NCBI GenBank assembly: GCA_947034885.2
Contig: OX344751.2
Coordinates: 13,330,001-13,394,000, forward strand
Source of the DNA: Thuidium tamariscinum
Lineage: Eukaryota > Streptophyta > Bryopsida > Hypnales > Thuidiaceae
Direction of reading: 5' to 3'
Length of the DNA stretch: 64,000 nucleotides
Positions 1,888-63,341 of this stretch are shown piece by piece. A model generated the notes under the pieces. That model ran no database searches. It was given only the letters and a program-made list of their open reading frames with translations, and was not told the DNA's origin. Both the position numbers and the translations under genes were made by a program. Numbering within the stretch: the first letter of the stretch is position 1; every line of letters starts with the position of its first letter.

Positions 1888-2703
1888 TCTCCTACGAGCC
1901 TAAGCCTTGGCAAGTGTGTTTTTCTTATGGAAAAAGAGCATTGACTTCTAGTATTCTCCAATGAAGCAAATTTTTCTTTTTTCAAAATCAAACTATATAG
2001 ATGTTTTAAGAGCTTGCTTATTAGTCTAGAAACCAATTTTGAGTGCAAAATTGCAAAGGAGTTGTGAGACTATACTAAGAGAAATGTGTGTGTTCTATTT
2101 TTAGTATATGGCATCTCTCTACAATATTTTAGAAATATGTATATTAAAGTTTTTTGGGATTAACAGTGATATGAACAAATACAAATAGTGTTAGCACATT
2201 AAAATGTACTTTCAAAAAACTTAATTTCACTTGGAAAGATATCATATTCATTACACAATCTACCTTGTAATTGTTGTAATACAAATTTTTTGCATAACTA
2301 AAATCACAAAAATCTACAAATCAATACTTGCATGTTGAAATTTTCAATGGTGAAAATCATGAAATACTTTACTCTTTCTATTGGGACCATTTTCAAAGCA
2401 TTTGGATAAGTACAATTTTTTAAATCTCAAATCAAGTGAAATTGGCAAGTTGTGCGCTAAAGTGGAAAATGAAGTAAAATTGGCAAGCTTTACACTCCAC
2501 TAATGTACATACATGCCTTTGAAGACCCTTCAATAATCAAATATTTACTTTTTTCTATGAAAAATAAATGTTTCCAATAGTTAACACTAAAAATTGCCCA
2601 AAACCAAGAAAAATTCAAAACAATCAAAGGAATTCAATTGCCCATTTAGATTTGAGCCTAAAATTTCTACGTGACCATATATGGTCGCGCAAGCAATTAG
2701 GGG
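1888..2703. mobile_element. TTAA-flanked non-autonomous element, family 2, copy a
   Basis: It is flanked by TTAA (1884-1887) and a degraded TTAT (2704-2707). The interior matches the copies at 13532-14318 (opposite orientation) and 20923-21725 (same orientation). Shared landmarks are the block around AAAAGAGCATTG near the left end and the palindrome GACCATATATGGTC at 2673-2686 near the right end. It is about 816 bp and non-coding. This is the most diverged family-2 copy. Confidence 0.75.
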
Positions 2704-2795
2704 TTATTATCTAGAAGTTACACCAATATTAAAACATCCTCAATGTTACTATACACATAGGTTTACATTCAAAACAATTGATGAAAAATATTTAA

Positions 2796-3336
2796 CTCCT
2801 AAAAGCCCAAGGGTTTAGCACAAAACACAAATGTGTTATAAAATACAAGCTCTATAACTTTTTTGAAGTTAGCATCAAAAAAGATAATGTAAAGCACAAA
2901 ATGTAAAAAACATCCGTATGGTCAAAATAAAAAAATTATTTTTAGATTCTTTTCAAATGAATTTTGAAGATATAACTTCAAAAATTCACTAAAAATATAA
3001 TTTCGAAAAGTAGAAATTAGGATTAAATTTTTTTTTTGATTGGTCAAAATTATGATTTTCATTGATTTGTAAAAAAATGCAAACATTTAGTAATGAGAGC
3101 ATCAATACTTTCTCCAAATAGTATATTTCTCAACACTAAGCAATATTAAACACTTTGTGCTATTTTTCTTATATTTTTTTCTTGACCATAGCGATCTTAG
3201 TTTTGAATATAAATGTTGAAAGGAAATTCAATATTTTTAAAATTTGAGAAAAAAAATTTTGAATTTTTTTTTCTGCCCGAAAATGCTGCCCGACTTTGGG
3301 CAACAACCAAAAAATGGTCGCTTGGGCGTTTAGGTG
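2796..3336. mobile_element. TTAA-flanked non-autonomous element, family 4
   Basis: TTAA lies at 2792-2795 and 3337-3340. The left end CTCCTAAAAGCCCAAGGG mirrors the right end, whose reverse complement is CACCTAAACGCCCAAGCG. The 541-bp interior is AT-rich and non-coding. The short open frame that starts inside it at 3213 crosses the element end and is not credible as a gene. Confidence 0.65.
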
Positions 3337-3496
3337 TTAAAATATTTAATTTTTATCGTGAAGTTCAAATTAACATTCACAATGAGTCTTTCAAACAACA
3401 TGTGCCTAAGGGGTAGCTTTATGGCCTAATAATTTTCATAACATTTGACTACATCTTTAAAATTTATTACATGATATGTGATTTTCTTTGATTTTT

Positions 3497-3845
3497 GGGC
3501 AACCTGGGCAGATCAAGAAACTTCTTTAAAATCTCTTCAAAAAAAAGAAAAAAGATTGAAATTGATTTTAAAAAATTATATGTACTTGAGAAGCTTTGAA
3601 TCATTCCATTTGGATAGATGAATTGAAGTTATGAGGAGTTATAGTTTGCAAATACTTAGTGGTATGGTTTTCAAAAACTCCATACCTACCTACAAGGTAA
3701 AACTCCTCAAAACTTTCACTTCATTTATCCAAATGAAATGATTCAAAGCTTCCCAAGTACATATAATCCTAAAGAATCAATTTTGATCTTTTATTTTTTC
3801 AAAAAGTGATTTTTAAGGAAGTTTTTTGAGCTGCCTGGGCATGCC
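3497..3845. repeat. Inverted repeat derived from a family-1 TTAA element
   Basis: Two arms of about 165 bp face each other; both carry AAGCTTTGAATCATT and GCTGCCTGGGCA-like motifs. The arm sequence matches the right half of family 1 (compare 10380-10500). The flank at about 3370-3497 continues the family-1 match in inverted orientation. It looks like a rearranged foldback built from a family-1 end. Confidence 0.6.
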
Positions 3846-5959: not shown

Positions 5960-8900
5960 TCATCGTTGTGCACCGCAGTGATGTTGTGGTTGTGCGTTGC
6001 TTGGTCCAAGGCCTGCTGAAGAGAAAGGTGGATGTTGGAAGCAGTGGGGGCCGTGGAACTGACCCCATGCACCGCTTGTGGGACACCAACGCGGTCTCAC
6101 CTCTGTTGGAGGAGGCATGTGACTCGTGTCTTCACCCCTTCGCTTCGCTGCTCTACGCGCCATAGCTAGTTTTTGATTATCGCGGCACACTTGGGGCACA
6201 CTTCCGCAATACAGAGCTACATAACCAACTACAGGCTTGTTCCTCTTTATAGCCGCATGCAGTTTCTCACCTGCTGCTCGAACATTCCTGACGCTCCATT
6301 CTTCGTTGTGCTTCTGTTTCGATTCTCTCATGACCGCCCTCACCTGCTTTGCTTGTAAGTCCAAACGACGTTGTTCTGCTCTAGCATCTTTCTCAGCATC
6401 TTTGATTGCTTGTCTCCTCTGTCTTTTTTCTGCTGCAACAGTCTTCTTGTTTGCAACGCTATCTAAATCGGGCATGTGATTCTCCTCTGTCAAAACAACC
6501 GAATTGTGGTAGTCAATATCTGGTTCCAATTACTGTCTTATAGTACGGGGTACGTAGACTCGCGGGAGCCATAGTAAGTCACAAAAGGTCTGGCTGGCGG
6601 TGCCGGCTACCGATCCTCCGACTGCAGTGTAAGTTGCCGCCGTCGCTTCACTTCCGCTCGGTTGCAATCCCGTCGGTCGTCGTTGGACCGGACTTGATCG
6701 TCGATCCAAGTCGGGGACGAACTGGTCCTCATCGTCATCGCTCTCTACATAGTACTCCTGGCAATGGGGAATGTCGATGGGCTCCTTGTCGAAAATTTCT
6801 TGGAGTTCCCATTGCGGAAGTTCATCCGCCACGACTGCTGTGTTTGTGTTCTCTTGCGCCTCCATATTGACGTCCGCTTCAGTTTCCTTGCTGTACACTT
6901 CGCTTGGTCCGATTTTAGAATTCACAACGTTGGTGTTTAGAGGAAACACACCTGTGGCTCTGAAGCCGCTTTGAATATTGCTTGTCGATAGAGCCCTCCT
7001 CAAAGCATTGGCGACCCACTGTGCAAGATCTTCCTTTTGGGGTACTTATGGTCAATTTTGTTAAAATGGCAGTATTCCAATAAAATGGCATGATATTCCG
7101 TTAAAATGGCACATTTTCTTCCTCTACTTCTAAGCCTCTATGTCAAAGTGGTACATGAAATATGTCAAAATGGCACTTGAAATTTGTCAAAGTGGCACAT
7201 GGAATATGTCAAAATGGCATTGGAATTTGTCAAAATGGCACTTGGAATACCGCCATTTTAACAAAATTGACCATACTTTCCCTAAGTTCCCCAAGCTCCA
7301 CTTGTCCCTGTAAGCTCAGAATGCTAGCTTGAAAGGCCTGAAACATGATACGTCCAGAGGTTGCAATGCATGCGATGTATGGGAAGGAATAGTTAGCAAG
7401 TCAAGACCACGGGACATGGCTAACTTGATGACCTCCATGGTGATGTGCGAACCGTGACCATCCAGAATGAATAAATGCCGGTTGGTTGGAGAAATGTCAT
7501 GGCGTTTACTGACAATGCCAAGGAAATGAGTCATCCACTCTATGAATATATCATTAGTCATCCAGGCCTTTGCTTGCATTGCAAATGCAGCATCTCTCTC
7601 TCTCCTGTTCTATAAACAAAATTCCGTTATTTACGCTTTCCCTTGAATATGTAGAAATTGGGCAAGCTGTCTCCACAGGCATTGATGCATGACACGACGG
7701 AGATCCACTCCCACTGATCCGAAGTTACCTTCATGACACTTCTTCCTCCTCTCCTTGCAAATACGTAACTTCCATCATCTTTGCCAGCTTGTGCCCCAGA
7801 CTCGTTGTAGTTCCAAATAGCTTCCGATCTGTAGTTGTGTTGATCGTACAGCATTTTCAAGTTCCCGTAGAACAAGGCTACAGTTTCTGCGCACAAATAC
7901 TTCGCTCGATTTTGGTCCAATGACTGAGGCTTCCGAAGAGTCAATTCCTTATGCCTTCCACGGAAGCAATGTGCCCACCCCGCTCCAGGGACTCCGTTTT
8001 TGAACGGTGTGACCCGACTCTAAGTGAGCATACTAACTTTCTACTGCAGCTGCCCTATGGTAACCGAGTACCCTATGTCTTGCATTTTCAGAACATATTG
8101 CACTAACTGCTGCTCCTCCTCATCAGTGAGTACTCCTTTCCTACCCCTCTTCTTATTCAATACAATTCCATAAACATGCCCCCCCAAAGTGGAAGATGGT
8201 ATGCTGAACTCTTTGGCGGCTGATCGCACAGGCATACCATCATCCACTGCTGCCAATGCTCGTTGCAAATCAATTTTACTCCACTTCCCATTAACCCTCG
8301 TACGTCCTATGTTTGCAGTCAAAGGCGTGGAATGAAAAGGGGAGTTCCTCTGTGAACGAGTACCTCTGTCCGCAATTAAGTCGGGCGATGTGTAGGCTCT
8401 GTTAGTTACACACCGCGTCTTCATGCGTGTCCGGTGTTGCGAACCTTGGCTGCCACCGTCTGTTGGTTGCGAAGCCCCCCGTCCGCCGCTTATCGGTTCA
8501 ACAGCGGCGGCAAGAACAACACGTCTTCGCGATCCGCTTCTACTGGAGGGATGCGTAGTTGACGGTGGGCTGCCTTCTTGAGGTACGACACGTGCTACCC
8601 GGGATCCGCCATGCGTTGCCAATGGGCCTGGAACAGGAGCACTACTCGATGTGCTAGCATATTCCATGAACAGTTCTCCAACTTGACGGGTTGCCTCCAT
8701 CAGTGCATCCATGTGAATTGTGGCCTTGTCAGGCACATGTTGTGACGACGGTCCCATGCCTCTCAATCCAACGGCACACGAGGCGGCTGCTTGATTCAGC
8801 TCGACTACTGCTTGCAAGTTCTCCTATTCAACACTGAAGTCTACGAAATCATCGCAGTCGTCGTTGTCACTGGAGCAGTACTCCGTGTCACTGCTCCCCT

Positions 8901-9734: not shown

Positions 9735-9738
9735 TTAA

Positions 9739-10683
9739 CCCCTAAACCCCTAACGGCGTTTTCACCAAAAAAAAATGCTCCAAAATTGCCATTTCTAATA
9801 CAAGAGCAATTTTTTTTTTAAAACACATTTTTGACTCATGTAACCGTAGGATCTTGTAGTAAGGTGGTTTGTAAACATGTGGAAAAAATTTCAGAAATTT
9901 CCACCATGTAGATTGCAAGATATATGCATTTGAATTGACAAAAACTGTTTTTTTATCCCTTCGAAAATTCGGGCAGCTGCACTTCACAAGGTCACATTTG
10001 TGTTAAAAAAATTCAAAATGGTGGTTACTCTTTGAATTCATACTTCAATGCAAGTTGGCTACATTCTCAAAAAATTTCAAACCATTTGGAGTTGTACAAC
10101 ATATAGGAAAAAATAAGTAAGTAGAAAGAAGTAAAAAATGAGCCAAAATACTAAATTGTGAACATTTTATTCATGGAATTGAAAATTTTCAATCCCAATG
10201 GTTAAATGTTGAAATAAACAATCTACACATTTTGTTTTTATTTTTTTCCAAAAATATGAAAAATTGAATTAAATGAAGAATTTCAAACTTTTTTTGTAGT
10301 GTGGAGATTCTGTAACTGGCCGCAAACTACCCCAAACTCAAAATCTTCATAACTTTTGACTCATTGATCGGAATGGATTGATTCAAAGCTTCACATGTCT
10401 GTATAAGCCTAAAGAACCAATTTGAAATTTCACTTTTCAAAAAAAAGTTTTTTTGAAAAAGTTTTTTCAGCTGCCCGGGATGCCCGCCGAGCAAACAAAG
10501 TGACATATCATGCCATAACTTTTTATCCACAGAGTCAAAAGTTATGAAAATTGTTGGGCCTTAAATCTACTCCTCGGACACACATTGTATCAAAAGTTCA
10601 AAGAAAAAAAATAAAAACTCCATCCGTAGTGAGCTGCCCAAAAAATCTATAATCTCAAAAAACGTTGTTAAGGGGTTTAGGGG
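9739..10683. mobile_element. TTAA-flanked non-autonomous element, family 1, copy a
   Basis: TTAA at 9735-9738 and 10684-10687. The left end is CCCCTAAACCCCTAACGGCG; the right end reads inward as CCCCTAAACCCCTTAACAAC. At 945 bp it aligns along its whole length with 22428-23371 (944 bp), apparently at well over 90 percent identity by eye. Open frames inside are short and not conserved in phase. No transposase is encoded. Confidence 0.9.
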
Positions 10684-10835
10684 TTAAACATATGTGTTCA
10701 AGATGCACTTCATCCAAAATGTTAGGCACATATTATTTTTAAATAACGTTTTTAGAAGATTATGATGTCCAAATTATGTATGATCAAGACATTCACCTCT
10801 TTTTTAGCAAAGACATTTAGCACTTGAAAGGGTAA

Positions 10836-11121: not shown

Positions 11122-11125
11122 GTAA

Positions 11126-13527: not shown

Positions 13528-13531
13528 TTAA

Positions 13532-14318
13532 CTGCTAACTATCCAATTGACCATATATGGTTGATTTGAAATTTCAGGCCCAATTCTGAATGGGCAGTTA
13601 AATTCCTATGACCTTTTAAAAAAAAATTCAGGCAGTTTTAAGGGTTAACTATTTTTCACTGAAAAAAGTACATATTTGATTATTGAGAGGTCTTCAAAGG
13701 CATACATGTACTATAAGTGAAGTGTAAAGCTTGCCAATTATACTTCATTTCATAGCTTTATGCAATTTCACTTAATTTGAGATCTAAAGAATTGTACATA
13801 TCCATTTACTTTGAAAATGGTCCCAATGGAAATAGGAAAGTGTTTTCATGATATGCACTATTGAAAATTTAATCATACAACTATTGATTTGGAGTTATTT
13901 TCAGTTTCTACTTATAAAAATAATTGCATTTCAACCATTGCAAGGTGGATTATGCAATGAATTTAATAGCTTTTCATGTGAAATCAAGTTTTTTAGAAGT
14001 GCATTTTAGTTTGCTAACACTTTTTGTAGTTGTTTATGTCACCTCAAATCTCCAAAAAAATTTATATGCAAATTTGAAAAACGTTGTGGGAAAGGTAGCA
14101 TACTAAATATAGAAAATGTACTTTTCTCTCCTTATAATCTCACAACTCCAATGTAGTTTTGTGCTCAAAATTTGTGTACTTACTAATAAACAAGCTCTTT
14201 AAACATCTATGTGGTTAGATTTTGGAAATAAATAAATTTGCTTCACTAGGGATGACTACAAGTCCATGCACTTTTTTCATAGTCAAAACACACTTGAAAA
14301 GGCTTGGGCATGTAGCGG
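13532..14318. mobile_element. TTAA-flanked non-autonomous element, family 2, copy b
   Basis: TTAA at 13528-13531 and 14319-14322. It is in the opposite orientation to copies a and c. The terminus CTGCTAACTATCCAATTGACC leads into the palindrome at 13549-13562. The right end GGCTTGGGCATGTAGCGG mirrors the left end of copy c. Length 787 bp, non-coding; the 60-codon frame inside is a chance frame within repeat sequence. Confidence 0.82.
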
Positions 14319-14709
14319 TTAAGCAAAATCAAATGTTCTCTATATTGTAGACAAAAAAAGGTGTTTTGTTTGCATCCTTTTTCAACCTCAATCTATTACC
14401 CTCTCATAGTGAACAAGTATGCCATTAGAAGGCACTCTAGGTTTTGAGCAAATTCCATTGAGTCTTAATTGTTGACATAAATCTATCAACTTAGAAAGTT
14501 TTGATTTATTTCATTTAGACTAATCATGAGAAACTTGTGGAGAGTCTTGTTTTCCAAGAAATTAGAGCATCTTCTTCAAAAACTAATTTGTAGGTGTTTT
14601 TTTTTATGTCAATGTTCATGAAAAAAAAGTTCCTAGAAATTTAGTTAGCGTACTAGAACAATCTCACCATTGGATTTATTGTATTTCAATTACATCTTAG
14701 AATTATTCG

Positions 14710-15629
14710 CCTCTAAAATTCTTTGACTATATTTTCATAAAAAATGCTCCAAAATTGCCATTTCTAAAGCAAGACATTATTAATTTCTTCTTTTAAAAAA
14801 ACATTTTTGGCACATATAACCTTAGAATCTTGAAGTATACTAGCTTGAAAAGATGTGGAAAAAAATTTCTGAATTTTTCACCACGTGGATTGCAAGATAT
14901 TATTTAGAGTTTAAATTCACAAAAATCCTTTTTGGCCATGCAAAAATAGAGATGTTGCACTTCACAAGGTCACATTTGTATGAAAAATGGTTCATATTGT
15001 TGGTGCTTCTTCAGTTTAATTCTTCAAAAAAAGTTGGCTACATGCTTGAAAAATTTTAGATTACTTAGAATTGTACAATATAAAGGGAAAAAATAGAAAG
15101 TAGAAAGAACTGGGAAATGTTTAAATACTAATTCTATTTATAGAATTGAAAAATGTTGATCCCAATAGTTGTAGTATTGTTATAAAGTATCTAAATTCTA
15201 TGATTTTATTTTTTCAAAAAATATTGAAAATTGAGTTAAATAAAGGACTTCAAAGGTTTATTTTAGACCAAAAAATTGATAAGTGCTCACAAACTAAAAT
15301 CCCCCATAACTTTCATTTCATTAATTAAAATTTTGAAATCATGATTCAAATCTTTCCACATGTATATAAATCTAAAATATTTATTTATTTATTTATGAAA
15401 AAAGTGATTTTTTCTTATTTGCTTGGATTGCCTTATTTAAAAAAATCACATATCATACAATAATTTTTTAACCATGTAGTTAAAATTTATAAAAATATTG
15501 GGTCTAGAAAAACCTTGTCAATATATTATGTAGAAAAGTTCAATGAAAGGAAATAAATAAAAACTCTATTCATAATCAATTGCCTAAAATTGCTATGTTG
15601 CTAAAAACCGCAATTTGGTCTTTTAGGAC
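14710..15629. mobile_element. TTAA-flanked non-autonomous element, family 1, old copy
   Basis: It aligns with family 1 along its length: the block AAAATGCTCCAAAATTGCCA is at 14742, and the subterminal Phe/Lys-like AT blocks follow in the same order. The left TTAA has decayed to TTCG (14706-14709); the right TTAA is intact at 15630-15633. It is clearly older than the copies at 9739 and 22428. Confidence 0.75.
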
Positions 15630-15633
15630 TTAA

Positions 15634-16059
15634 CAATTTGTTTTCTTTTGTCTTATTTTCTACCAACTTCTACATAATAACAATAGTAAAAATGAAAATT
15701 AAATTAAATTTTTAAATTTTTTAGTCACAAACTCAAATTGAGTTTTCAACATTAAAAAAATTTAATCCAAAGTCTATAGTGCAATTTTTTTTAAGTTAAG
15801 AAGATTCAAAGGCAACAAAATCTAGTCTCATGAGGTGCAAAACCTTTTTTTCCACTTTAAAATGTTTATATTGTGCAATCACGCACTCAATCTACAAGAG
15901 TATAGTTTCTAAATTTCTTCCTCACAATTTTTTGCTAGTCTATTGCAAGATCCAATAGTTAGATATGCCAAACAAATTAAAAGATATTAAATTTGATAAT
16001 AGAATTGGCAATTTTGAATGTTTTTACACCAAAAAAGTCCTTGGTCCTTTTGGGGTTAA
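15634..16059. other. AT-rich stretch ending in a possible TTAA-element end
   Basis: The sequence GTCCTTTTGGGG followed by TTAA (16056-16059) looks like the right end of another TTAA-flanked element. A short CCAA...TTGG palindrome precedes it. The matching left end was not found. Confidence 0.35.
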
Positions 16060-18187: not shown

Positions 18188-18191
18188 TTAA

Positions 18192-19072
18192 CCCTTTAAG
18201 GATCAGTCAATCACTTTTTGGTTGATTTTTGCACTCTCGGTCTTCTATAGTGCAAAATACATTTGATTATAAATATCTCAAAAAGTAACGCAATTAGAGT
18301 GTCTTCATGCACTTCAAACAAAACCAATTTCAAGATAATTGAAGCATTAATGCATTAGCTATGAGGTTGCAAATTCAAATGGTCTGGACCCTCAAATGGA
18401 AAGTATTCAACAAAAATACAAAAAAATATCAACCAATTTGTGAGACTTTTTTGTATCGTGATGTCTTGACAAGGCATAAGTGTTGCTTTGTGATCTCATG
18501 AATGCCCAAGGTAAACTTATGCATTGAAATTTATGTAGCACAAATTCTAAAGGGTCATTCAAGTCATTGATTTTTGAGGATTAAGGAAAACAACTCAATT
18601 CCAACAAGGCTTTAAAAGCAAACATGATTTAGAGGTACATTTTGCTTTCTTCAATGTACCAAATCTACACATTTTAGAAGGATATTGCTTTTGATGAACA
18701 TGGATGACTATTTTTTGTAAACTTCAAAAATTTGTAACTAATTTCAAAAAGCTTCAAAAAATATGAAACGACTTGATTTAGATGCCTATTCTACTTGCCT
18801 CTTAAGAAAAATTTACTGAAAAATATTTAAAGATGTTCCTCATCTTTAAAATTCAATTCTATCCCTTAAAAGGTTGATTTATGGACCTTTCTACCTTATT
18901 TATAGCAATTTGTATTGTTGGATGAGTTTGATTTTTGGTTAGGTTGAAGAATCTCCCTTATGGCAATACTTTATACGGTTTGATCTAAGATTACATCCTT
19001 AGAATGGCCACAAAATTCACTTTCTTGAAAAACTATGCCCACCCCCCCAAATCAACCACAATCCTTAAGAGA
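18192..19072. mobile_element. TTAA-flanked non-autonomous element, family 5
   Basis: TTAA at 18188-18191 and 19073-19076. The left end CCCTTTAAGGATCAGTCAA mirrors the right end (reverse complement TCTCTTAAGGATTGTGGTTG). A subterminal CAATCACTTTTTGGTTG palindrome follows the left end. It is 881 bp and non-coding. Confidence 0.72.
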
Positions 19073-19076
19073 TTAA

Positions 19077-20644: not shown

Positions 20645-20922
20645 AGTAGCAGAATTCAAGCAGTTTCACACTCAATTTTAGCTCTCACTTTGCTCTATGT
20701 AGGATCGGTGGTAAAACCTTGACACACTCATCCCTGTTGTTGTGAGAAGAGGTGATTTATAAAATTGGAAGATTGGTGATTACTGGGAAGCATGTATTAC
20801 TAACCCTATTTGTTCACATCTGTGACTTTACGTAGTTTCCAGATGTTTGAAAAAAGTGCCAGCAAGGAAAAAACGATATAATGGGCAGGAGAGAGGTTCA
20901 CATTAGGAACCACTACACTTAA

Positions 20923-21725
20923 CCCCTAAATGCCCAAGCCTTTTCAAATCTGTTTTGACTATGAAAAAAGTGCATGGATTTGTAGTCATCCCTAGTGAAG
21001 CAAATTAATTTTTTTCAAAAATCTAACCGCATAGATGTATAAAGAGCTTGTTTATTAGTAAGTACACAAATTTTGAGTACAAAACTGCATTGGAGTTGTG
21101 AGATTATAACGAGAGAAGAGTACATTTTCTATATTTAGTATGTTGCCTTTTCCCACAATGTTTCTCAAATTTGCATATAAATTTTTGGAGGGATTTGAGG
21201 TGACATGAACAACTACAAAAAGTGTTAGCAGACTGAAATGCACTTCTAAAAAACTTGATTTCACATGAAAAGCTATTAAACTCATTACACAATCCACCTT
21301 GCAATTGTTGAAATGCAATTATTTTTATAAGTAGAAATTGCAAATAACTCTGAATCAATAGTTATATGTTTAATTTTCAATGGTGAATATCATGAGAACA
21401 CTTTCCTCTTTCCATTGGGACCATTTTCAAAGCAAATGGATATGTACAATTTTTTAGATATCAAATTAAGTGAAATTGCATAAAGCTATGAAATGAAGTA
21501 AAATTGGCAAGCTTTACACTTCACTTATGGTACATATATGCCTTTGAAGACCTCTCAATAATCAATTATGTACTTTCTTTTCAGTGAAAGATGAAAGTTT
21601 ACAATAGTTAATCCTTCAAACTGCCCGAATTCTTTTTTACAACGGTCACAGAAATTTAACTGCCCATTCAAAAATGAACCTGAAATTTCAAATTGACCAT
21701 ATATGGTCAATTGGGCAGTTAGGGG
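20923..21725. mobile_element. TTAA-flanked non-autonomous element, family 2, copy c
   Basis: TTAA at 20919-20922 and 21726-21729. The left end CCCCTAAATGCCCAAGCC mirrors the right end (reverse complement CCCCTAACTGCCCAATTGAC). The perfect palindrome GACCATATATGGTC lies at 21695-21708. It is 803 bp and the best preserved copy of family 2. Open frames on the minus strand inside it match those of copy b only because the repeat does. Confidence 0.88.
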
Positions 21726-22427
21726 TTAAGGAAGATTGCACATCCAAAAAAATTTACTTTTCTTAGTTCGACAATTTGGCACACAAATATAATTTTCTTT
21801 GTTTTCAGCACTTTATGAGGACACTCCTAATTTTAAATAGATTCTTTATATTCATGCATAAATGCGCTCCTTTTTCTAATTTTTTCAAGAACAATTTTTT
21901 TCCAATTTTTAGAAATAGTTGTGAATAATCTTTAAAATTTCCACATCTTCCAAATTTTCCTGAGTTATTTATAAAACTGACCTACAGTTACAGTTGTCAC
22001 CTCCTCCACTGCACTTTCCCTTGATTACAGTGTCCTTCCCCCCTATTTCTCTAGAGGCTCATTACATGTAGCTCTTCCACAAATCGCCCCTATTTTTCCA
22101 TGAGAGTTATTTAATAGCCAAATTTCAAGGCTATTAGGAAGCAAAAGAGAATTTCTAGGATTAATCTAAAAGGAAATTAAATATCTTCCTAAAGAAATGT
22201 CTTCCTCATATCTTCCTAAAGAAATTTCGTAAGAGCTTATTCTTGTGTAAGGACATCAAGAGAGTCTAAATAATTATAGAGGTGTAAAAAAACTTTTCTT
22301 CAGGAACACATGATACACAAAAATAAGAATCTAGTTTTTTGTTCCTACTAAAATCTAGAAAACAAGTTCCAATGTTGATTAAAACGAACCATACTAGTTT
22401 CTTCTTGACGTCCTGCCAGTACATTAA

Positions 22428-23371
22428 CCCCTAAAGCCCTGACTATGTTTTCACCAAAAAATGCTCCGAAACTGCCATTTCTAATACAAGTGCAATTTTT
22501 TTTTAAAAACACATTTTTGACTCATGTAACCGTAGAATCTTGTAGTAAGGTGGTTTGTAAACATGTGGAAAAAATTTCAGAAATTTTCACCGTGTACATT
22601 GCAAGATATAAGCATTTGAATTGACAAAAACTGTTTTTTTATCCATGCGAAAATCCGGGCAGCTGCACTTCACAAGGTCACATGTGTGTGAAAAAAACTT
22701 CAAAATGGTGGTTACTCTTTGAATTCATACTTCAATGCAAGTTGGCTACATTCTCGAAAAATTTCAAACCATTTGGAATTGTACAACATATAGGAAAAAA
22801 TAAGTAAGTAGAAAGAAGTAAAAAATGAGCCAAAATACTAAATTGTGAACATTTTATTCATGGAATTGAAAATTTTCAATCCCAATGGTTAAAATGTTGT
22901 AATAAACAATCTACACCTTATATTTTTATTTTTTTCCAAAAATATGAAAAATTGAATTAAATGAAGAATTTCAAACTTTTTTTGGACTGTAGAGATTCTG
23001 TAACTGGCCACAAACTACCCCAAACTCAAAATCTTCATAACTTTTGACTCATTGATCGGAATGGATTGATTCAAAGCTTCCCATGTCTGTATAAACCTAA
23101 AGAACCAATTTGAAATTTCACTTTTAAAAAAAAAGTTTTTTTGAAGAAGTTTTTTCAGCTGCCCGGGCTGCCCGCCGAGTAAAGGAAACGACATATCCTG
23201 CTATAACTTTTTAACCGTGAAGTCAAAAGTTATGAAACTTGTCAGGCCTTAAAGCTACTCCTCGGGCACACATTGTATCAAAAGTTCAAAGAAAAAAAAT
23301 AAAAACTCCATCCGTAGTGAGCTGCCCAAAAAATTTATAATCTCAAAAAACGGGGTTCAAGGCTTTAGGGG
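22428..23371. mobile_element. TTAA-flanked non-autonomous element, family 1, copy b
   Basis: TTAA at 22424-22427 and 23372-23375. The left end CCCCTAAAGCCCTGACTATG mirrors the right end (reverse complement CCCCTAAAGCCTTGAACCCC). It is near-identical to 9739-10683 in sequence and length, so family 1 moved recently. Confidence 0.9.
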
Positions 23372-23373
23372 TT

Positions 23374-23826
23374 AAAATTGGTAAATAGTGTTGGCAACAC
23401 TAATTTGTTGAGATAATACTAATTGTGATCTGCAAGGTTAGTGTTAGAAGATTATTAATTCAATCGAACACTATTTTAGCTCTATAGTAAATTACAATTT
23501 TCTAGGAAAAGGATAGATTTTCGTGGCACAAGGCAAAAAATACAGTTTTCTAGGAAAGGGATAGATTTTCGGAGCGGGAGGCAAAAATTATAGTTTTCTT
23601 AGAAAGAAACAAATTTTAACGGCAGGAGGTAAAAATTACAATTTTGCAAGAAAGGGACAAATTTTTACGGTGGGGGACAAAAATTACAGTTTTATAGGGA
23701 AGGGACAGATTTTTTTATGACAGCAATTAAGTGCCCCAACACTATTTACACATAAGTTGAAAAATAATATTGGGGTAAAAAACAAGGAACAACACTAATT
23801 ATCACCCAACACTATTTACCAATTTT
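23374..23826. mobile_element. MITE-like element carrying a minisatellite
   Basis: The left end AAAATTGGTAAATAGTGTTG is repeated inverted at 23807-23826. Inside, at 23487-23720, a unit of about 54 bp (core TTTTCTAGGAAAGGGATAGA, then a purine-rich GGCAAAAATTA) is repeated four to five times with variation. It abuts the right TTAA of the family-1 element. No target duplication could be fixed. Confidence 0.7.
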
Positions 23827-24627: not shown

Positions 24628-25410
24628 ATGGATTTGTCTGTGTTCTTGATCCTTCTCTTCGTCACCTTGAATTTCGTTGCCGAGTGCTACAATTGGAGTC
24701 AGTACAGGGTGAAGTTGGGCATATTCATCGCCACTCTCATCATCACCTTGCCAAATATCACATTCATGGTCATTGATTGGTGGCAATCCCCGCACTCCAA
24801 GATGGCCTTGTTGGTTTTGAACACGTTCCAGCCGATACTTCGAGGAGAAACGTACAGGTTGTTCAGGTGGTTGAAAAGTGGGGGAATGGGTTTAACTTCT
24901 GACGAACTCAATTACCTGCTCATTTCAAACCCCAGTAACAGTGCCGATTTCTTCATGACCAGAGAATGCTTCCTAGCTTCGAGAAGTGCAGGGTTCAAGG
25001 TCATAACAGAAGATGACGACGAGTTTGAAGTTTCATTCCCTTTTTTAGACTATAATAGATGTACTGGATTTACGATGCACTATGAAAATGAGACCACTTT
25101 TGTTCAAGAGTTTAGGTTTAGTAGGAAATTAAGGGATCTTTGGAGGAAGTTGGGCTATGAAGGTTTCGTAAGTCATCGTTTATTTAGGTCCAGTTTGATT
25201 AGAAATCGAACTTACACAAATGTGGATGTCCCAACAGCAAAGCGGTTAGCAATTCGGTTGATGAAAATATGTAACACTAAATTGCCTATCCTAGCAGAAT
25301 TTGAATGTAGGCGGGAGTGGTTTTATTTTCATGCAGCTTCCACTCTTGACTACCTCGACAAAGACCTCGTGCTCATACACGCTCAAGGAGAAGCCATTGC
25401 AGTGGGCTAG
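24628..25410 (+). CDS. Two-TM unknown protein, family copy A
   Basis: A 260-residue open frame with no in-frame break. Residues 3-20 are hydrophobic (FLILLFVTLNFVA) and end at a Cys, so they could be a signal peptide or signal anchor. Residues 29-48 form a second hydrophobic segment (GIFIATLIITLPNITFMVI). The rest is soluble-looking, with an acidic stretch at about 128-133 and a conserved potential N-glycosylation site in YENET. The tail YFHAASTLDYLDKDLVLI is invariant in all three copies. The ATG at 24628 is preferred because the leader CGAAGCAGGCAATATAA just upstream is identical in copies A and B. I do not recognise the family. No intron is needed. The gene is plausibly expressed, given that the frame is maintained in A and B. 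Confidence 0.72.
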   Translation: MDLSVFLILLFVTLNFVAECYNWSQYRVKLGIFIATLIITLPNITFMVIDWWQSPHSKMALLVLNTFQPILRGETYRLFRWLKSGGMGLTSDELNYLLISNPSNSADFFMTRECFLASRSAGFKVITEDDDEFEVSFPFLDYNRCTGFTMHYENETTFVQEFRFSRKLRDLWRKLGYEGFVSHRLFRSSLIRNRTYTNVDVPTAKRLAIRLMKICNTKLPILAEFECRREWFYFHAASTLDYLDKDLVLIHAQGEAIAVG

Positions 25411-26940: not shown

Positions 26941-27620
26941 TGTTTTCAGCTTTGAATGTTCTAAGAATATTGTGTGAATGCTAGAAAATTAAGAAATAAA
27001 TTAGGTTGGTTTTCCCTTGTGGGGCTAACATTTTTTAGCCAAAAAATTGTCATTTCAATCAACAAGCTCTCCAAAGCAAAAACAACGGATGGTTTCAAGT
27101 GCATATCCCTTAAAAGACAAAGGCTTTAGAAGGTACATATGCATATGCCACTAAGATGGACGTACCCAACCAGTTTTCAATACTATATTTTGAACCAAGC
27201 TTGAAAATATATATAAATATAGAATGTCCAAAATGTACAATTTCCTTAAATGAATTCAAAAATTGGTCCAAGATATTTGAAATAGTTAAACTTCACAAAT
27301 TTATAGTGTTTTCATACATACTCAAAAAGTTACCAATTTTTTTTGAAAATTCATGCTTTTCAATTGCTAATGTGTTAAAAATTATTTCATTTGTTTATTC
27401 CACTTCAAAATACCATAAGTGGGGATTATATTTAGCTATGAGCAACCATAATTGAATTTCTATATTAGATATTGATAAGTCCACATCACCTTGCACCAAT
27501 CACTAGATGACATATGGGGTATTTTCTTACAAATATGAATTCATCTATGCTCAATTTGATCTCATGTAGGGTATGTGAAATTGCTTAAAATGATGTATAC
27601 AGGTACCTTGGACACTTTAA

Positions 27621-36411: not shown

Positions 36412-37801
36412 CAGTGGGGTACCAATCAAAATGTTGTTTTCGAATTTACAGTGAGAAAAATTTCAGTATTGCCAACTTTGAAAGCCCCTCGAGAGCTCAA
36501 AAATTGGTGTTTTACCATGAAATTTTTACCACGGCATCATCTTTAAGTTAATTATATGTATGCCGAATTTCAAGGCCAAAAGATTCACCAAAAAGAAGTT
36601 ATTTAAAATCTACCAACATGGGTAGTGGTGACAAACATTTCACTACTTTCAACTTTGACACCTTCCTAAGGATTGAGTTTTTTTTTCTTTTGCCATGAAA
36701 TTTTTGTCATGAAACAATCTCTATGTTTTTAGTATGCATAAGAAATTTTAAGGTAAATTTTTTTTTTAAGAAGATATTTGAAATCTCCCAACATGTGTAG
36801 TTTTGAGAAAATTTTCACAATTGCCAACTTTGACACCCTCTTAAGGGCTGAAAAATTGGTTTCTTACCATGAATTTTTTGTGTGAAGTCATCTATATGTT
36901 GATAATATGTGCTACAAATTTCAAATTCAAATGAATTACCAAAAAAAAGATATACAAAATCTCCCAACATGTGTAGTTGTGAGAAATTTTTCACTATTGC
37001 CAACTTTGACACCCTCCCAAGGGCTGAAAATTTGTCTATTTAACATGAATTTTTTTGAATAAGATCAAATTTATGTTGATAATATATGCTCCAAATTTCA
37101 AGTTCAAAATACTTACCCAAAAAAAGATATTCAAAATCTCTCAACATGTGTAGTTGTAAGATTCAGTTTTTACATTCGTGTCAAACTTTGCTCCACAAAA
37201 TAACACTATACTAAGGGCTCAAAAACTCCTCCTCACAACTACACATGTTAGGAGATTTTGTATATCTTTTTTATGGTAATTCATTTGAAATTGAAATTTG
37301 TAGCACATATTATCAACATATAGATGACTTCACACAAAAAATTCATGGTAAGAAACCAATTTTTCAGCCCTTAAGAGGGTGTCAAAGTTGGCAATTGTGA
37401 AAATTTTCTCAAAACTACACATGTTGGGAGATTTCAAATATCTTCTTAAAAAAAATTTTACCTTAAAATTTCTTATACATACTAAAAACATAGAGATTGT
37501 TTCATGACAAAAATTTCATGGCAAAAGAAAAAAAACTCAATCCTTAGAAAGGTGTCAAAGTTGAAAGTAGTGAAATGTTTGTCACTACTACCCATGTTGG
37601 TAGATTTTAAATGACTTTTTTTCGGTGAATCTTTTGGCCTTGAAATTCGGCATACATATAATTAACTTAAAGATGATGCTGTGGTAAAAATTTCGTGGTA
37701 AAATACTAATTTTTGAGCTCTCGAGGGGCTTTCAAAGTTGGCAATACTGAAATTTTTCTCACTGTGAATTCGAAAATGACATTTTGATTGGTACCCCACT
37801 G
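36412..37801. mobile_element. Foldback element, TA target, CAGTGGGG termini
   Basis: A near-perfect palindrome of 1390 bp with arms of about 600-690 bp. Ends CAGTGGGGTACCAATCAAAA and its inverted copy. The left flank is TA (36410-36411); the right flank is TG, where copy A shows a single TA in TATGTACATACCTCAATCC at about 28626. Each arm contains subrepeats of about 180 bp with the cores CCAACATGTGTAG and TTGCCAACTTTGACACC. It is non-coding. TA target and CAGT ends fit a Tc1/mariner-type relative. Confidence 0.9.
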
Positions 37802-38539
37802 TGCATACCTCAATCCCAAATAATTTTTTGGCCCTAGCAAACCAATTTTTCATAACCTGACACTACAAAAAAGGGGACCTAATTAACATAAGATTAACTA
37901 ATTTGTGTTGATTGTGACAAAATGGAATTTTTTTCATTAATCTAGCTACATCTCTTAACAAAAATATTAATCAACAAAAATGTATTGATTGTATCCAAAA
38001 AATAAATTTGCTTAATTGATTTGGCTATCCATTAAGTATATTTTAAGTGAAAATTTGGACCTCATTTGGGCATAGTAGAATAACTTTTTTCAAAAAAATT
38101 TGAACTAAGAAGAAGTGGGATGTCAAACCAAATTTCATCTTCAAAAATCCATTTGAGAATTCAAGCCTCCCATTAAAAGTTATGGGCAAATTCTAGAGAG
38201 GGTTTGGAAGGGACATTTTTTTGGACAATTTAAATTTCTTCTTTGAAATTTGTCCATAACTTTTGATTAGAAGCTTGAAATGTCAAATTAATTTTGGAGA
38301 TAAAACTTGTTCTAATATCTCACCTTTTCTTAGTTTGAATTTTTTGAAAAAAGTTGAACTACTATTCTTAAATGAGGTCTAAAATTCACCTTAGACTATA
38401 ATCACTAGTCTTGACTTAACTATGAGCAATTGAGCTCATACTCATCCTAATCAAATATATTCCATATGGCTTGTTCTACCTCCTACCATGCAACTAGTAT
38501 AAAGGACTTGCCTTCTCCTTTCTTTTAGCATTGAAGTAA

Positions 38540-39633
38540 GGGTGATTGCAAGAAATACTTAAACCCCTTTGTCACACTCTAGTTTTTTACTTTTTTTTTT
38601 GCCATAAATTTGTTGTTTTAGCTCTAAATGACTCAAAATTTATAGGAAAGGTACTCATAGCTATTAAATATCTATAATGAATTTTAGAGATTTTTCAAAA
38701 ATAATTTTGTATTTTTAAATAGCCCCAAAAATTTCTCACAATACTCAATTTAGGGGTTTATAGCACGATTTATCTTCCAAAAAACGAATTTTGACCTAAA
38801 ATTTGGAGAGAATGGTCTCATAGTAGACTTATACCTATTATTAAAAGGAATTCAAAGAATACTTACTTTTTAAGTGTTGTAGAAGTCCACAAATAAAGCT
38901 TCATTTTGTATTTTTTTCCAAAGGTATAAGACATTATTTTGGTGAGTTTTTTGGTCAAATCTCATCACCAAAAAGTTTTTATAAGTTCTTTATTTTTATA
39001 TATGTTTTGAAAAAAGAATACTATTTCTTACAAATAAAAACGTCACAAGTTGTATTTTCTTCACCGGAACTTTGGACATAGAATTCTCATAGAATTCCAG
39101 TGAAGAAAATACAACTTCTGACATTTTAATTTGTAAGAAATAATATTCTTTTTTCAAAACATATATAAAAATAAAAAACTTATAAAAACTTTTTGGTGAT
39201 GAGATTTGACAAAAAAACTCACCAAAATAATGTCTTATACCTTTGGGAAAAAATGCAAAATGAAGCTCTCTTTGTGGACTTCTACAACACTTTAAAATAA
39301 ATATTTTTTGAATTACTTTGGACAGTAGGTATAGGTTCACAAAGAAACCATCCTCTCTTAATTTTAGGTCAAAATTTGTTTTTTTGGAGATAAATGGTGC
39401 TAAAAACCCCTAATTGAGTACTATGAGAAATCTTTGGGGCTATTTAAAAATAAAAAATTATTTTTGAAAAATCTCTAAAATTAATTATAGGTGAAAAATA
39501 GCTATGAGTAGCTTCCCTATAAATTTTGAGTCATTTGGAGCTAAAACACAAAAGCTATGTCTAAAATAAAATAAAATAAACTAAGGTCTGAGGAATCGCA
39601 ACAAATAGTACAAGTGTTTCTTGCAAATCACCC
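38540..39633. mobile_element. Foldback element, GGGTGATTGCAAG termini, GTAA target duplication
   Basis: A 1094-bp palindrome with arms of over 500 bp meeting near 39085. Ends GGGTGATTGCAAGAAA and an inverted CTTGCAAATCACCC. GTAA occurs at 38536-38539 and 39634-39637. Copy A has the unoccupied site AAAGTAAGTGGCACTTAAAG at about 29333. The minus-strand frame inside is palindrome sequence, not a gene. A partial relative is at 520-689. Confidence 0.92.
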
Positions 39634-40480: not shown

Positions 40481-40490
40481 TAGAAAATCT

Positions 40491-40786: not shown

Positions 40787-40796
40787 TAGAAAATTT

Positions 40797-42384: not shown

Positions 42385-42388
42385 TTAA

Positions 42389-42883
42389 CCTTTAAGTGTC
42401 GAGATTCATCTCTTGAATTGATGAGTTTGAGTTTTAGGTTCTATTGGCATATGATTAGATTCACCAATGCTATCACCAATATTTTCCTCTAAATTTTTGA
42501 AAGAAAAAATTCAAAATTCAATTACAAGCAAAATATTGTCATTTTTTGAGTAAATGTTGTTGAAAAGGATTTGAAATGAAGTTCTTGTGACATGGTGATT
42601 TTTTGGAGTTTTTACGTTCTTTGAATCTATAACCTCATTTTTGCAATTCTAAATTTGAACTAAAGTCAAACCAAGTCAACCACTTGATATACTTCCACAT
42701 TTATAATTTCTTTAAAATAAGGGCTTTAGTAACACTAAATCCAACCTTTGGATAGGACCACAACTTCATAAAATATCTCTTAAAATTAGAATGACTTTCA
42801 TCAAAACTATAATGAGAAAGAAATCTGGATTTCAATGTGTGTAAGTTGATTGTGTAGAAATTGAACGTCAGAGCGCTCCAAGG
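42389..42883. mobile_element. TTAA-flanked non-autonomous element, family 3, inverted copy
   Basis: TTAA at 42385-42388 and 42884-42887. In reverse complement it aligns with 62770-63337: the end CTTGGAGCGCTCTGACGTTC matches that element's left end, and the interior blocks TGATGAAAGTCAT and AATGTGGA recur in order. Length 495 bp, non-coding. Confidence 0.75.
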
Positions 42884-42887
42884 TTAA

Positions 42888-43896: not shown

Positions 43897-44842
43897 TAAG
43901 GTAGAGGTACCTATAATGGATGCAAGATGTTAAATCATACAATTGAAGGTGGGCATGGCAGGTGGATTTACCTCCGGGGAAAATGCAATTATGTTTTTAT
44001 TTTTCTCAAATTCTGAATTCATATTTGCAATCAGAGACCCAAAAATAGTTTCTAGGGGTCTAAAACATACCTTAGACATGGCCCAAAATAGGGGGATTTT
44101 TTCACTTTAATTTATCTAATAACCCCATAATTTATCATGTTAGGCCCACCTTTGATGGTAGGATTTAACATCCAACATAATGGATAACTTAAGCATTTCA
44201 ACATGGAAGATGTGGGAAATTCACTTTGAAATTCAACTTAGTGTGTGCAAATGTAAAGATGAGGAGGAACAATGCAAGAAAAAAGAATTTTTTTCCTTCA
44301 AAAATGAATATTTTATTCAATATGAACATAGTTTTTGCATTAGGATCCATTTTGATTTCATAGATTCGCCTATTATGGTTAATTTTTAGACTTCTCCCTA
44401 AGCAATAAAAGAAGAAAGATGATTGGATGAGAAGGTACAAATAGAGAATCTTTTTCAATGAATAGCACATCCAAGAGTTGTCCACACTAGGACATCCTAT
44501 GAAGTCATTAAAGGAGGGTTGTTTAAAATAGGTACTTTTACCTTATCTATTGAAAATGATTCTATGTTTGTACCTTCTTGTCCAATCATCTTTCTTTCTT
44601 CATTGCTTAGGGAGAATTGTAAAAAGCTAACCATAATAGGTGAGTTTATGAAATCAAAATGAGTCCTAATGAAAAATCTACATTCATATTAAATAAAATA
44701 TTTATTTTTGAAGAAGAATTTTTTTTTTTGGCATTGTTCCTCCTCATCCTTGTATTTGCACACACTAAATTAAATTTCACAAAAAATTTGCTATATCTTC
44801 CATGCTGAAATGCTTAAGTTATCCATAATTGGTACCTCTACC
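43897..44842. mobile_element. Complex foldback element
   Basis: Outer ends AGGTAGAGGTACCTATAATG and its inverted copy (CATAATTGGTACCTCTACCC, about 44820-44842). Inside are two palindromes: about 43913-44183 (arms around GATGTTAAATC) and about 44180-44825 (arms of over 250 bp starting TGGATAACTTAAGCATTTC). An 80-bp block at about 44464-44547 is directly repeated at 44847-44935, just outside the right end. The small frames at 44180-44389 and on minus are palindrome sequence. Confidence 0.6.
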
Positions 44843-45596: not shown

Positions 45597-46378
45597 ATGG
45601 ACCTGTCTGTATTCGTGCTCCTTCTCTTTGTCACCTTGAATTTCGTTGCAGAGTGCTACAGTTGGAGTCAGTACAGGGTGAAGTTGGGCATATTCATCGC
45701 CACTGTCATCATCACCTTGCCAAATATCACATTCATGTTCATTGATTGGTGGAAATCCCCGCATTCCAAGATCGCCTTGCTGGTTTTGAACACGTTCAGG
45801 CCAATACTTCGAGGAGAAACGTACAAATTGTTCAGGTGGTTGAAAAGTGTGGGAATAAGTTTAACTTCTGACGAGCTCAATTACCTGCCCATTTCAAACC
45901 CATTAACAGTTCTGATTTCTTCATGACCAGAGAATGCTTTTCAGACGCTTCGAGAAGTGCAGCGTGGAAGGTCATACCAGAAGATAATGACGACGTGCCT
46001 GGAGTTCGATTCCCTTTTATGAACTATACCAGATGTACTGGATTTGCGATGCACTATGAAAATGAGACTGTCATAGTTCATGAGTTGAGTAGGAAATTAG
46101 AAGATCTTTTCAAGGTGTTGGGCTATGAGGGTTTCATAAGTCATCGTTCGTTTAGGTCCAGTTTGATAGATCATCGAACTTATACAAATGTGGATGTCCG
46201 GAAGGCAAATCGGATGAAGAGTCGTTTGGTCAAAATATGTCACTCTGAATTGCCTATCCTAGCGAAATTTGAAATGAGACGGGAATGGGCATATTTTCAT
46301 GCAGCTTCCACTCTTGACTACCTCGACAAAGACCTCGTGCTCATACAGGCTAAAGGAGGACCCCTTGCAGTGGGGTAG
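45597..46378 (+). pseudogene. Two-TM unknown protein, family copy C, frameshifted
   Basis: The ATG at 45597 corresponds to the starts of copies A and B. The first about 100 residues read as in A and B: two hydrophobic segments, IDWWKSPHSK, RPILRGETYKLF. A one-base deletion near 45900, against AACCCCAGTAAC in A, then shifts the frame. The downstream part from MTRECFSDAS to the conserved YFHAASTLDYLDKDLVLI tail is in another phase, with YENET kept. Apart from this single shift the gene looks well preserved, so inactivation is recent or the shift is a sequencing error. Its leader differs more from A and B than they do from each other. Confidence 0.72.
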
Positions 46379-59400: not shown

Positions 59401-59404
59401 AGTG

Positions 59405-60382: not shown

Positions 60383-60498
60383 ATAACAAAGTGTCAGTGC
60401 GAGAAATAAGGGTACTGGCAACCTCGAGGGGGGCCCTTATATACCCGTGGCCGGGCCCCTCTCGGTAGTTGCCGGTGAAAACACTTTGTTACTTCTTA
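60383..60498. repeat. Strong imperfect hairpin with a TATATA loop
   Basis: The left arm runs from AATAACAAAGTGT through CTGGCAACCTCGAGGGG to GGGCCC. The right arm mirrors it: GGGCCCCTCTCGG, GTTGCCGG, ACACTTTGTTA. The loop is TTATATACCCGTGGCC. The GC-rich stem stands out in AT-rich DNA. Confidence 0.7.
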
Positions 60499-62224
60499 CC
60501 CTAAACTACCCTAATGTAATTCCAAAATATTAGTTGTTTAATGGTGGAAATTTCTAAAAACATCCCCATTTGGTCAAAGAAATCTTGGCCAAATCAAATC
60601 CAAGATCTTAACCCAAAATATTTTGAAATTAACCCTAATTTACATAGATATTTTGCAAATTAACCAAAAGTCATTTCGAAAATTGTCTTTCTTTAGCTCA
60701 AAGATGGCTTTTTACGCAAGAAAGAGATCTTGACCAAATCCAATCTTTGATTTTCCAAGAGATATTCCCAAAATCACTTCTAATTAACCGCAATTAACGA
60801 TTAAAAAGTCAAACTAAGAGCTGACCCTCTCTATCTTTTAGGGAACAACTCGAAACGGAAAACCGTCTGCGCCATTGTCTTCAGAAGACCCCAATTAGCC
60901 TAAGGGACCCCTTACCCCTCACTCCTAGGCCATTTGCGTGCCCAAATTGGAATTACGGTAACTCCAATTAAAAGTCAAAAATCTAACTTTTAGGATTTAC
61001 GCAATTTGATGAATCTGTCAGGCTAGGGTTGTTAAGAATGTCCGTGAGAGTAAGGAATGACTCCTTATTTGCGACAATCGGACATCATTCACTCCTGATA
61101 CGCCGGTCAACCCGCCGCCAATTTGTAACTTCCAGTGAATTTCGATGTCGATGCCGATTTTGGTAGTTGGGAATGTCGGAATGTCTTCAAACTTGACCGG
61201 GCGCTTATTAAGCACACAAAAAACTATCCTAATTTTTAGTGAGATTTTACCGCATCATATGTAATTTCTATGATTTTACGAACATTTCTATGTGCGGTTG
61301 ACTTCCCATGGAGTCAACGTGGAATTTCGGAAAAATCCGAAATAAATTGGGTAACATCTAGGGCAATCCTAGATTCTTGGTGTAAGTTCCACGCAACCTT
61401 GCACATTTCTAATTTTAGCAATTTGGAATTACTTTGCCCAATTGGACAATTTAATTCCCGATGCCCGGGAATCTTGGACAATTGTTTGATTCTTGTTTGT
61501 TCCTGGCATGCTCCTACCCTTGGAACACCTCTCTGTAGTCTTCAATCTCCAATCCTCCATCTTTTGCCTCATGAAATTCGAATTCTCCAAATTCATTGTA
61601 GTGGTTTTACCTTTAAATCCAATTTATTCCAAAATTGAACTTAATCCTTGGTAACTCTTCTAGGCTCGTAGTAGACTCTTTTAGCTTAGTCAGTATGTCG
61701 TGTGCATTCTTAAAAGGCTGACTTTGCAAAGACATTCGCTAGGACTGACTAACTCTCTATTCCTTATTTCTCTTGGAATTACTAAATCTTTGCATAAACT
61801 TGCTTTGGAGACTTAGAATGATTCAAATTTCTAGGATTAGGAATTTTTTACCTTCTAAGTTGGTTTTCCACCATTTTGGCATAGACTGACACCAAAACTC
61901 CCTCAACACTCTTTTTATGTCTTTTTCTTGAATATTTTGACTAATTTTCGCTATTTAATCGCGAAAAATGGACCCAGAGTCCTAAGTGCCATCTCGAGGG
62001 CTTACACCTCCCAAGGAAAAAAAATGGAGAGTGTAGAAGAAATCTTGACTCCATCTAAATAAATTCCTAGGGAGTGGGATGGTACTTTGCTAATTGAAGG
62101 AAAAATTTACGAAGGCAACATTAAGTACACTTTTAATGAAGGATTTAGGATTATGTAGGAAAGACAAAAGTGAAATTATAATCAAATTCTACAATAGGGC
62201 ATATCATTGGATATAGTCTTCTTT
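60499..62224. other. Intergenic stretch, mixed composition
   Basis: Moderately GC-richer patches at 60840-61220 and 61440-61700 hold short frames on both strands (a 65-codon minus frame at 61018-61215 and a 122-codon plus frame at 61270-61638) with no recognised domain. They could be remnants of a repeat. I do not call a gene. Confidence 0.4.
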
Positions 62225-62228
62225 AACC

Positions 62229-62472
62229 TTAAAGCGCTTTGACATTCAATTTTTGGAAGAAAGAAAAATTGAAAATTAGTTTTCATTGTTATTAGTTGAT
62301 AATCTACATGATTACAATCACTTCATTTCAAAATTGGATTAGCAAAAATGAGGTCTTAGATTTTCACATTACTTGTATTTGTACATCAGCTCCAAAATAT
62401 TCTTCCAAATATTACTTTATAACAATTTTTTCCAAATGACCAATACTAGAGAAGGATCTAAATCTTGAGGGG
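62229..62472. mobile_element. TTAA-flanked element, family 3, deleted copy
   Basis: TTAA at 62225-62228; the right flank is CTAA (62473-62476), a decayed TTAA. The left end CTTAAAGCGCTTTGACATTC and the right end AGGATCTAAATCTTGAGGGG match 62770-63337, with the middle deleted. It lies 300 bp from the full copy in the same orientation. Confidence 0.7.
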
Positions 62473-62769
62473 CTAAAAAAGATTCTTAATTTTGTAGTTT
62501 ATATCATCTTGTCTACTCACCTACCTTGCTTCTTTGATTAGAGATAAGCTTACCAAGTGGCTTGGCTGTAATTTAGTTTAAAATTCTATGAGATTTTAAT
62601 ATTCATCACCATCTTGAAAAAATAATTGCCTGTGTTCTACACTCTTCTTCACTTTTTTCTATTTCTGCATAAGAGGATTGTAATTTCTAAATGAATTCCC
62701 CACCAATTGACATGCTCAAATGCTTAAGTTATCCATTTTAGGGACTGGATCCTTACTGAAAGGGTTTAA

Positions 62770-63337
62770 CCCCTAAGCGCTGCAACGTCCAATTTTTGGA
62801 CGATGCATAGATTCCAAATCAGTTTTCAAGTTTCATCACCGCTTGGATGAAAGTCATCTAATTTGTGGTGATACTTCATAGAGTCTTTGTCCTATCTAAT
62901 GGTTGGATTGGGTGTTATTGGAGTTCATATTTTTCTAAAATTACAAATGTGGAAGTTAGTCAAGCCAAAAATTGCATTCATTTTAGTTCAAATCCGGATT
63001 TGCAAAAATGAGTTAATAGATTTTAAGAACACAAAAATTTCAAAAAATCACCATATAAAGACAACCTCATTTCAAATTCATTCCAACAAGTTTTACTCAA
63101 AAAATGATAATATTTTGTTTGTGATTGAATTTAGAAGAAATTATGAATTTTCCCTTTCAAAATTTATAAATAAATATTGGTGATAGCATTGAGGAATCTA
63201 AATATATGGATGGAATCTAAAATTCAAAGTCTACAACTTTTACTTGTATGTCAAGTTCAAAATATTCTTCCAAATTGTATTTTTTAATGATTTTCCCAAA
63301 GTAGTCAATTTTGGAGATGGATCAGGACGTTTAGGGG
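62770..63337. mobile_element. TTAA-flanked non-autonomous element, family 3, full copy
   Basis: TTAA at 62766-62769 and 63338-63341. The left end CCCCTAAGCGCTGCAACG mirrors the right end (reverse complement CCCCTAAACGTCCTGATCC). A subterminal palindrome CGTCCAATTTTTGGACG is at 62786-62802. It is 568 bp. The 98-codon frame inside is not conserved in the copy at 42389 and is not a gene. Confidence 0.87.
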
Positions 63338-63341
63338 TTAA

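Follow-up and report, generated by a model that had tools for sequence, protein, structure and literature searches.

A 64-kb stretch of plant DNA, C3:13330001-13394000 of a 363.2-Mb assembly in 19 contigs (hereafter the window), carries eleven short elements set between copies of TTAA. We put it at roughly nine chances in ten that these are non-autonomous members of the piggyBac superfamily, of the type called miniature inverted-repeat transposable elements (MITEs), which would be moved in trans by the transposases of larger elements. PiggyBac is a jumping gene best known from animals. An earlier note, made from the letters of the window alone, had listed at least eleven TTAA-flanked miniature elements in about five families and assigned them to piggyBac. 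All eleven listed starts belonged to real elements, each start falling 4-7 bases inward of a TTAA, intact or decayed, and the boundaries were corrected; sorting by sequence gave exactly five families, with three members each in A, B and D and one each in E and F. The assignment to piggyBac held as well, resting on TTAA duplication, CCC...GGG tips and the PF13843 transposases of full-length elements.

The duplication of TTAA was clearest outside the window. We fetched 29 non-window loci of family A (L044-L072), 28 of which had both ends, the left end of L063 having been lost. At 26 of the 28 the element stood between two TTAA copies with flanking DNA that differed from locus to locus. The exceptions were L049, with TTAA/TTAG, and L059, which lies in an unusual target with ATAT on both sides; because of this ATAT/ATAT copy, the four flanking bases can be assigned to the target. 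We also joined the flanks of filled sites and searched for empty ones. For L054, the filled site was returned as two query segments, 1-304 and 301-604, which both include the TTAA; the 38 other first-listed matches all crossed the junction at 67-80% identity; 21 further matches were side pieces that stopped short of it. Four of these paralogs were read by letter at the site and had TTAA (L068), TTGA (L051), TTTG (L003) and TCAA (L077). The eight paralogs shown for the insertion at L056 likewise all crossed the junction without a second copy of the tetranucleotide. Such sites fit insertion at a single TTAA and, by their sequence, are paralogous and old. Set against the empty-site test of the earlier note, the paralogs show no second copy, most of them having a decayed tetranucleotide. 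A joined-flank match for family D of the window was rejected as an empty site, being the region itself.

The element ends are far more common than chance would give. The 11-mer TTAACCCCTAA occurs 23,459 times in the genome (11,789 + 11,670), against 330 (176 + 154) for its reversed control. Allowing one mismatch, there were 17 in the window where 1.77 were expected, a number that none of 100 shuffles reached, and the 8 exact matches in the window form four convergent pairs that correspond to four elements. First-look searches, whose candidates are not confirmed copies, returned 6,638 for family A, 2,863 for D, 1,592 for B, 3,567 for F (with a query that included flanks) and 8,382 for E (with a query that also contained other repeats). 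In each family the 40 best candidates were scored, the window copy included, so that what follows describes best matches and not random copies. The earlier note held that ends should align across genome-wide copies, and boundaries did recur in the best-scored copies of all five families, as read from match coordinates and not from letters for B, D, E and F. The full element was spanned exactly by 36 of 40 matches in family A (1-952), by all 40 in B (1-811) and by 35 of 40 in D (1-576). Among the 39 other scored matches of family F, 35 started within 4 bases of 18188 and 20 ended within 2 bases of 19076; the corresponding counts for family E were 32 (of 2792) and 32 (of 3340). Since matches to the window copy of family B tie near 93-94%, that copy is not the youngest. 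One relative of family A, at L066 236-975, is interrupted by a different insert; the interruptions in L066 and L050 were considered as nested piggyBacs and proved to be other kinds of insert.

A search for a full-length element with such ends and a DDD transposase, which the earlier note had proposed, was successful. The PF13843 profile gave 659 candidates genome-wide, and all of the 116 that were scored passed the cut-off; the profile found nothing in 14 control genomes. One element, PB-E, is 5,096 bp long, has TTAA at both ends and is identical at two loci (on C2 and C8). We found it at 11 loci, each with different flanking DNA, and over the 3,984 nt compared, nine of these (the reference included) showed no differences and two showed one. 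One piggyBac line has therefore been copied very recently, its copies being nearly letter-for-letter identical. The open frame of PB-E has 1,023 codons, with the DDE domain at residues 501-900 of the 991 scanned; it can be aligned with the piggyBat and piggyBac structures, the three motifs being kept, and it closes with a Cys/His cluster. When compared with known structures, the L024 frame matched piggyBat (9c0f, E=3e-27) and piggyBac (6x67, E=1e-22), and all three catalytic motifs (DE, DN, GVD..D) were kept in the alignment with both. By pattern, at what we take to be the positions of the DDD motifs, all three were present in L011, L024 and L036 out of 14 transposase sequences; four of the rest were truncated by stops and the others matched the pattern in part. 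L011, L013, L024 and L036 also have a putative C-terminal Cys/His cluster of the form C-x2-C...C-x2-C...C-x3-C-x4-H. A second element, PB-E2 (L041), is 4,896 bp long and has ends similar to those of PB-E. Of a third, C7:5357160-5363105 (about 5.9 kb), we read the transposase and 3' end (L031) and the 5' end (L078), with about 0.7 kb of the middle unread between them. The 14 transposase sequences, the four shortened ones among them, fall into groups that are 33-56% identical to each other, with 63-77% identity within a group (two groups having more than one close member).

Comparison of the ends showed that they are built of parts. We compared eight chosen element types, namely the window families A, B, D, E and F, a family C represented at L003, and PB-E and PB-E2. 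CCC...GGG termini stand next to TTAA, with variants in families E and F. Over the tip (bases 5-11), left and right ends were 0.88 identical within an element and 0.83 between elements, while over the following box (bases 12-19) the values were 0.73 within and 0.43 between, a result equalled in only 2 of 40,320 permutations. By bases 20-34 the likeness was gone, at 0.24 within and 0.30 between. From these identities, the 7-bp tip is common to the types and the 8-bp box is specific to each. The earlier note had described one terminus serving several unrelated interiors; of that terminus only the tip is common, and families A and C share interior stretches. Behind the box, a strong palindrome (score of at least 7) was present in 13 of 53 unique ends, 17 loci that repeated others having been excluded beforehand. 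This is only a moderate excess over the 8.9% of 3,000 control TTAA sites and the 4.7% of shuffles that had one. PB-E, PB-E2, B, C and D each have the palindrome at a single end, and none was found in this test at the ends of family A.

Family E gave the only match of a MITE to a transposase-bearing element at both ends. Its left end is 90.9% identical over 22 bp to the 3' end of C7:5357160-5363105, and its right end 83.7% identical over 43 bp, palindrome included, to the 5' end of that element. Family B has 20 bp at 95% in common with the same 3' end.

We propose that the transposases of larger piggyBacs elsewhere in the genome would cut out the MITEs and insert them at TTAA. The ends are modular, with the shared tip CCCCTAA or a variant beside TTAA, then a type box of about 8 bp alike at both ends; in several types the box is followed, at one end, by a palindrome of about 15-20 bp. 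The catalytic core might read the tip. Excerpts of PMC11707139 describe the Cys-rich domain of piggyBat as binding an imperfect palindrome near the element end, and by analogy the box and palindrome here may be read by the remainder of the transposase with its C-terminal Cys-rich domain. Each MITE family would then be served by its own transposase line, although which line moves which family, and whether any is active today, we infer from sequence.

The earlier note had favored a single active transposase mobilizing diverse passengers, which would need to read only the shared tip. It is true that exact CCCCTAA is found at both ends in four of the eight types (A, B, C and D) and at one end in two more (PB-E and PB-E2), with variants in the other two (E and F). 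A protein that reads the tip alone would not account for boxes that are specific to each type and alike at both of its ends, nor for transposase groups as far apart as those seen here, nor for the match of family E, at both ends, to one particular piggyBac. We therefore set this part of the earlier note aside in favor of several transposase lines with ends of their own, and regard a single transposase as unlikely. The earlier note also said that Sola3-type elements use TTAA, and movement by Sola3 or another TTAA-using superfamily would explain the target. We consider this very improbable: where an element with such tips and TTAA is full-length, the transposase that it encodes belongs to PF13843, though no search for Sola was made in the genome.

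Given how well piggyBac is known from animals, one might also suppose that animal or fungal DNA had contaminated a plant assembly. The genome held 49 matches to chlorophyll a/b-binding proteins, exon pieces included, from which we take the host to be a plant, as the earlier note had supposed. When one LHCII protein was compared with the PDB, the best single-domain chains, below two multi-domain 9vfj chains, were 8htu_U and 7xqp_a. We take these to be moss (Physcomitrium) structures and call the host moss-like for that reason. The 40 scored matches to family A are spread over 11 contigs (C1-C11), eight of which (C1-C4, C6, C7, C9 and C10) also carry chlorophyll-binding matches, and this leaves contamination the least credible of the alternatives.

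Several observations nevertheless weigh against our conclusion that larger piggyBacs move these MITEs. The empty sites are paralogs with identities of only 67-80%; among those read by letter for L054 an exact TTAA was present in L068 alone, and at L056 none of the eight paralogs had it, most reading TTAT. Two further sites, L058 and L071, were rejected as empty sites because the matches that spanned them were weak and lacked TTAA at that point. For family A we found no larger partner. At E <= 0.001 the DNA of MITE D resembled neither PB-E nor PB-E2, so that the link of family D to the PB-E group rests on end architecture. Neither excision nor transposition was observed.

The larger elements also hold additional coding sequence. 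Upstream of the transposase, and in a different reading frame, lies an open frame (here ORF1) of 285 aa in PB-E and 297 aa in PB-E2. The two ORF1 proteins share 44% identity across 259 positions (E=8e-60), while their DNA can barely be aligned (86 bp at 72%). The 285-aa protein, the one representative scanned, matched nothing in Pfam up to E=1, and a 137-aa stretch of it gave a single PDB match, at E=0.77 and not of note; no relative was found in viral contigs with the patterns used. Genome-wide, the 137-aa stretch had 148 matches (150 of 238 candidates were scored), many of them weak, at 27-40% identity. Of these, 58 are placed 1.2-3.9 kb upstream of, and on the same strand as, 58 of the 116 listed transposases, one each; for the remaining 90 no other arrangement with a listed transposase was seen inside 8 kb, a count made against the 116 listed and not the 543 unscored candidates. 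The other 58 listed transposases had no ORF1 match; they may lack ORF1 or have one that has diverged too far. In PB-E2 an intron that would join ORF1 to the transposase frame looks possible by eye, with no clean counterpart seen in PB-E, and ORF1 may be either a first exon or a protein of its own. It is possibly a new accessory domain.

Together, the eleven elements of the window come to about 8.0 of 64 kb, or about 12.5% (two boundaries being approximate). Coordinates given here include the flanking tetranucleotides. Exact TTAA is found on both flanks of seven elements (starting at 2792, 9735, 13528, 18188, 20919, 22424 and 62766); in the other four (1884, 14703, 62223 and 42385) a flank has decayed or one end was not located. 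Family A comprises a 952-bp MITE at 22424-23375 (+), a copy 93.5% identical to it at 9735-10687 (+), and an old, decayed copy (74%) at about 14703-15633 (+), with a 5' flank of TTAT and an approximate 3' end. Family B has an 811-bp MITE at 20919-21729 (+), a 90% copy at 13528-14322 (-) and a 76% copy at 1884-2707 (+), the right flank of which has decayed to TTAT. Family D has a 576-bp MITE at 62766-63341 (+), an internally deleted copy of 254 bp at 62223-62476 (+) flanked by TTAA/CTAA, and a 75% copy at about 42385-42882 (-), which has an approximate far end and one end not located. Families E (549 bp, 2792-3340, +) and F (889 bp, 18188-19076, +) complete the set. None of the 11 open reading frames of at least 150 aa in the window overlaps any of these elements, and tblastn with transposase frames from 30 loci found no match in the window at E <= 0.01, in agreement with the earlier note that no transposase is present there.

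Further ends of the TTAACC type, beyond those listed earlier, are found at 12912, 16059, 27617, 30619 and 49077. The two at 27617 and 49077 represent one further kind of end, which carries a TGACCATTTATTGGTCA palindrome, and 15661-16059 has a 67% likeness to family C of L003. The window also has long inverted repeats at 36407-37806, 38583-39579 and 44177-44829, with arms of up to 284 bp that are 95% complementary; these are fold-back elements of another kind, and the one at 44177 is 84% identical over 134 bp to DNA beside the piggyBac of L037. Three related open reading frames of up to 262 aa (24628-25410, 31005-31793 and 45923-46378, all +) form a small, local family of genes; Pfam scans of the first two gave no match. 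At 5960-8817 (-), adjoining reading frames, one with an HTH_psq match, are perhaps the relic of a pogo-type transposase.

The biology of the superfamily is known, and it is the plant host that is unusual. Among excerpts of the literature, a review names PiggyBac among seven MITE superfamilies of angiosperms (PMC10004981), a fern repeat table credits piggyBac with 122,417 bases, for which it prints 0.00% (PMC6890710), plants are named in passing (PMC10813416, PMC8086355), and one table gives PiggyBac in all groups studied (PMC4438587). A 2022 review of land plants lists six superfamilies with terminal inverted repeats, and in the text available the word piggyBac is absent, leaving it out of the DNA transposons of plants (PMC9033089). 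PMC10619864 was set aside as a false hit on the expression 'piggybacking'. We found no description of intact, recently copied piggyBacs from a plant, or of intact ones from a bryophyte, in excerpts of the openly licensed PMC literature; Repbase and most subscription journals lay outside this search, so an earlier description is possible. Our results add two things, full-length copies that are nearly identical and the domain upstream of the transposase. With piggyBac MITEs making up about one-eighth of the window, such copies suggest a live piggyBac system in a plant. It would offer natural replicates for the joint change of transposases and end sequences, as well as an unnamed domain for further work, and it might yield a plant-derived transposon tool that leaves no scar. 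We give even odds to a wider account, in which a moss-like plant has seen a radiation of piggyBacs with an unnamed N-terminal protein or exon (ORF1), whose boxes diversified with their transposases, which supplied thousands of MITEs, and which still include at least one active line.

Like piggyBac of Trichoplusia ni (6x67) and piggyBat of Myotis (9c0f), the elements described here duplicate TTAA and have CCC...GGG tips, and their transposases have a DDE_Tnp_1_7 domain with aligned DE, DN and GVD..D motifs and a C-terminal Cys/His cluster. They differ in size, at 4.9-5.9 kb versus 2,472 bp for a typical piggyBac according to excerpts of PMC10813416, in the position of the DDE domain, which in L024 and L015 is found around residue 500 of the open frame, in the extra upstream coding domain at half of the scored matches, and in their plant host. 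The MITEs resemble the CMITE elements of corals, which are short and non-coding and whose spread has been linked to piggyBac-like transposons (PMC2872659, in excerpt). CMITE elements, however, belong to an animal host and, by the same source, have interiors that are more conserved between families than their terminal repeats, whereas here it is the tip and box that define families.

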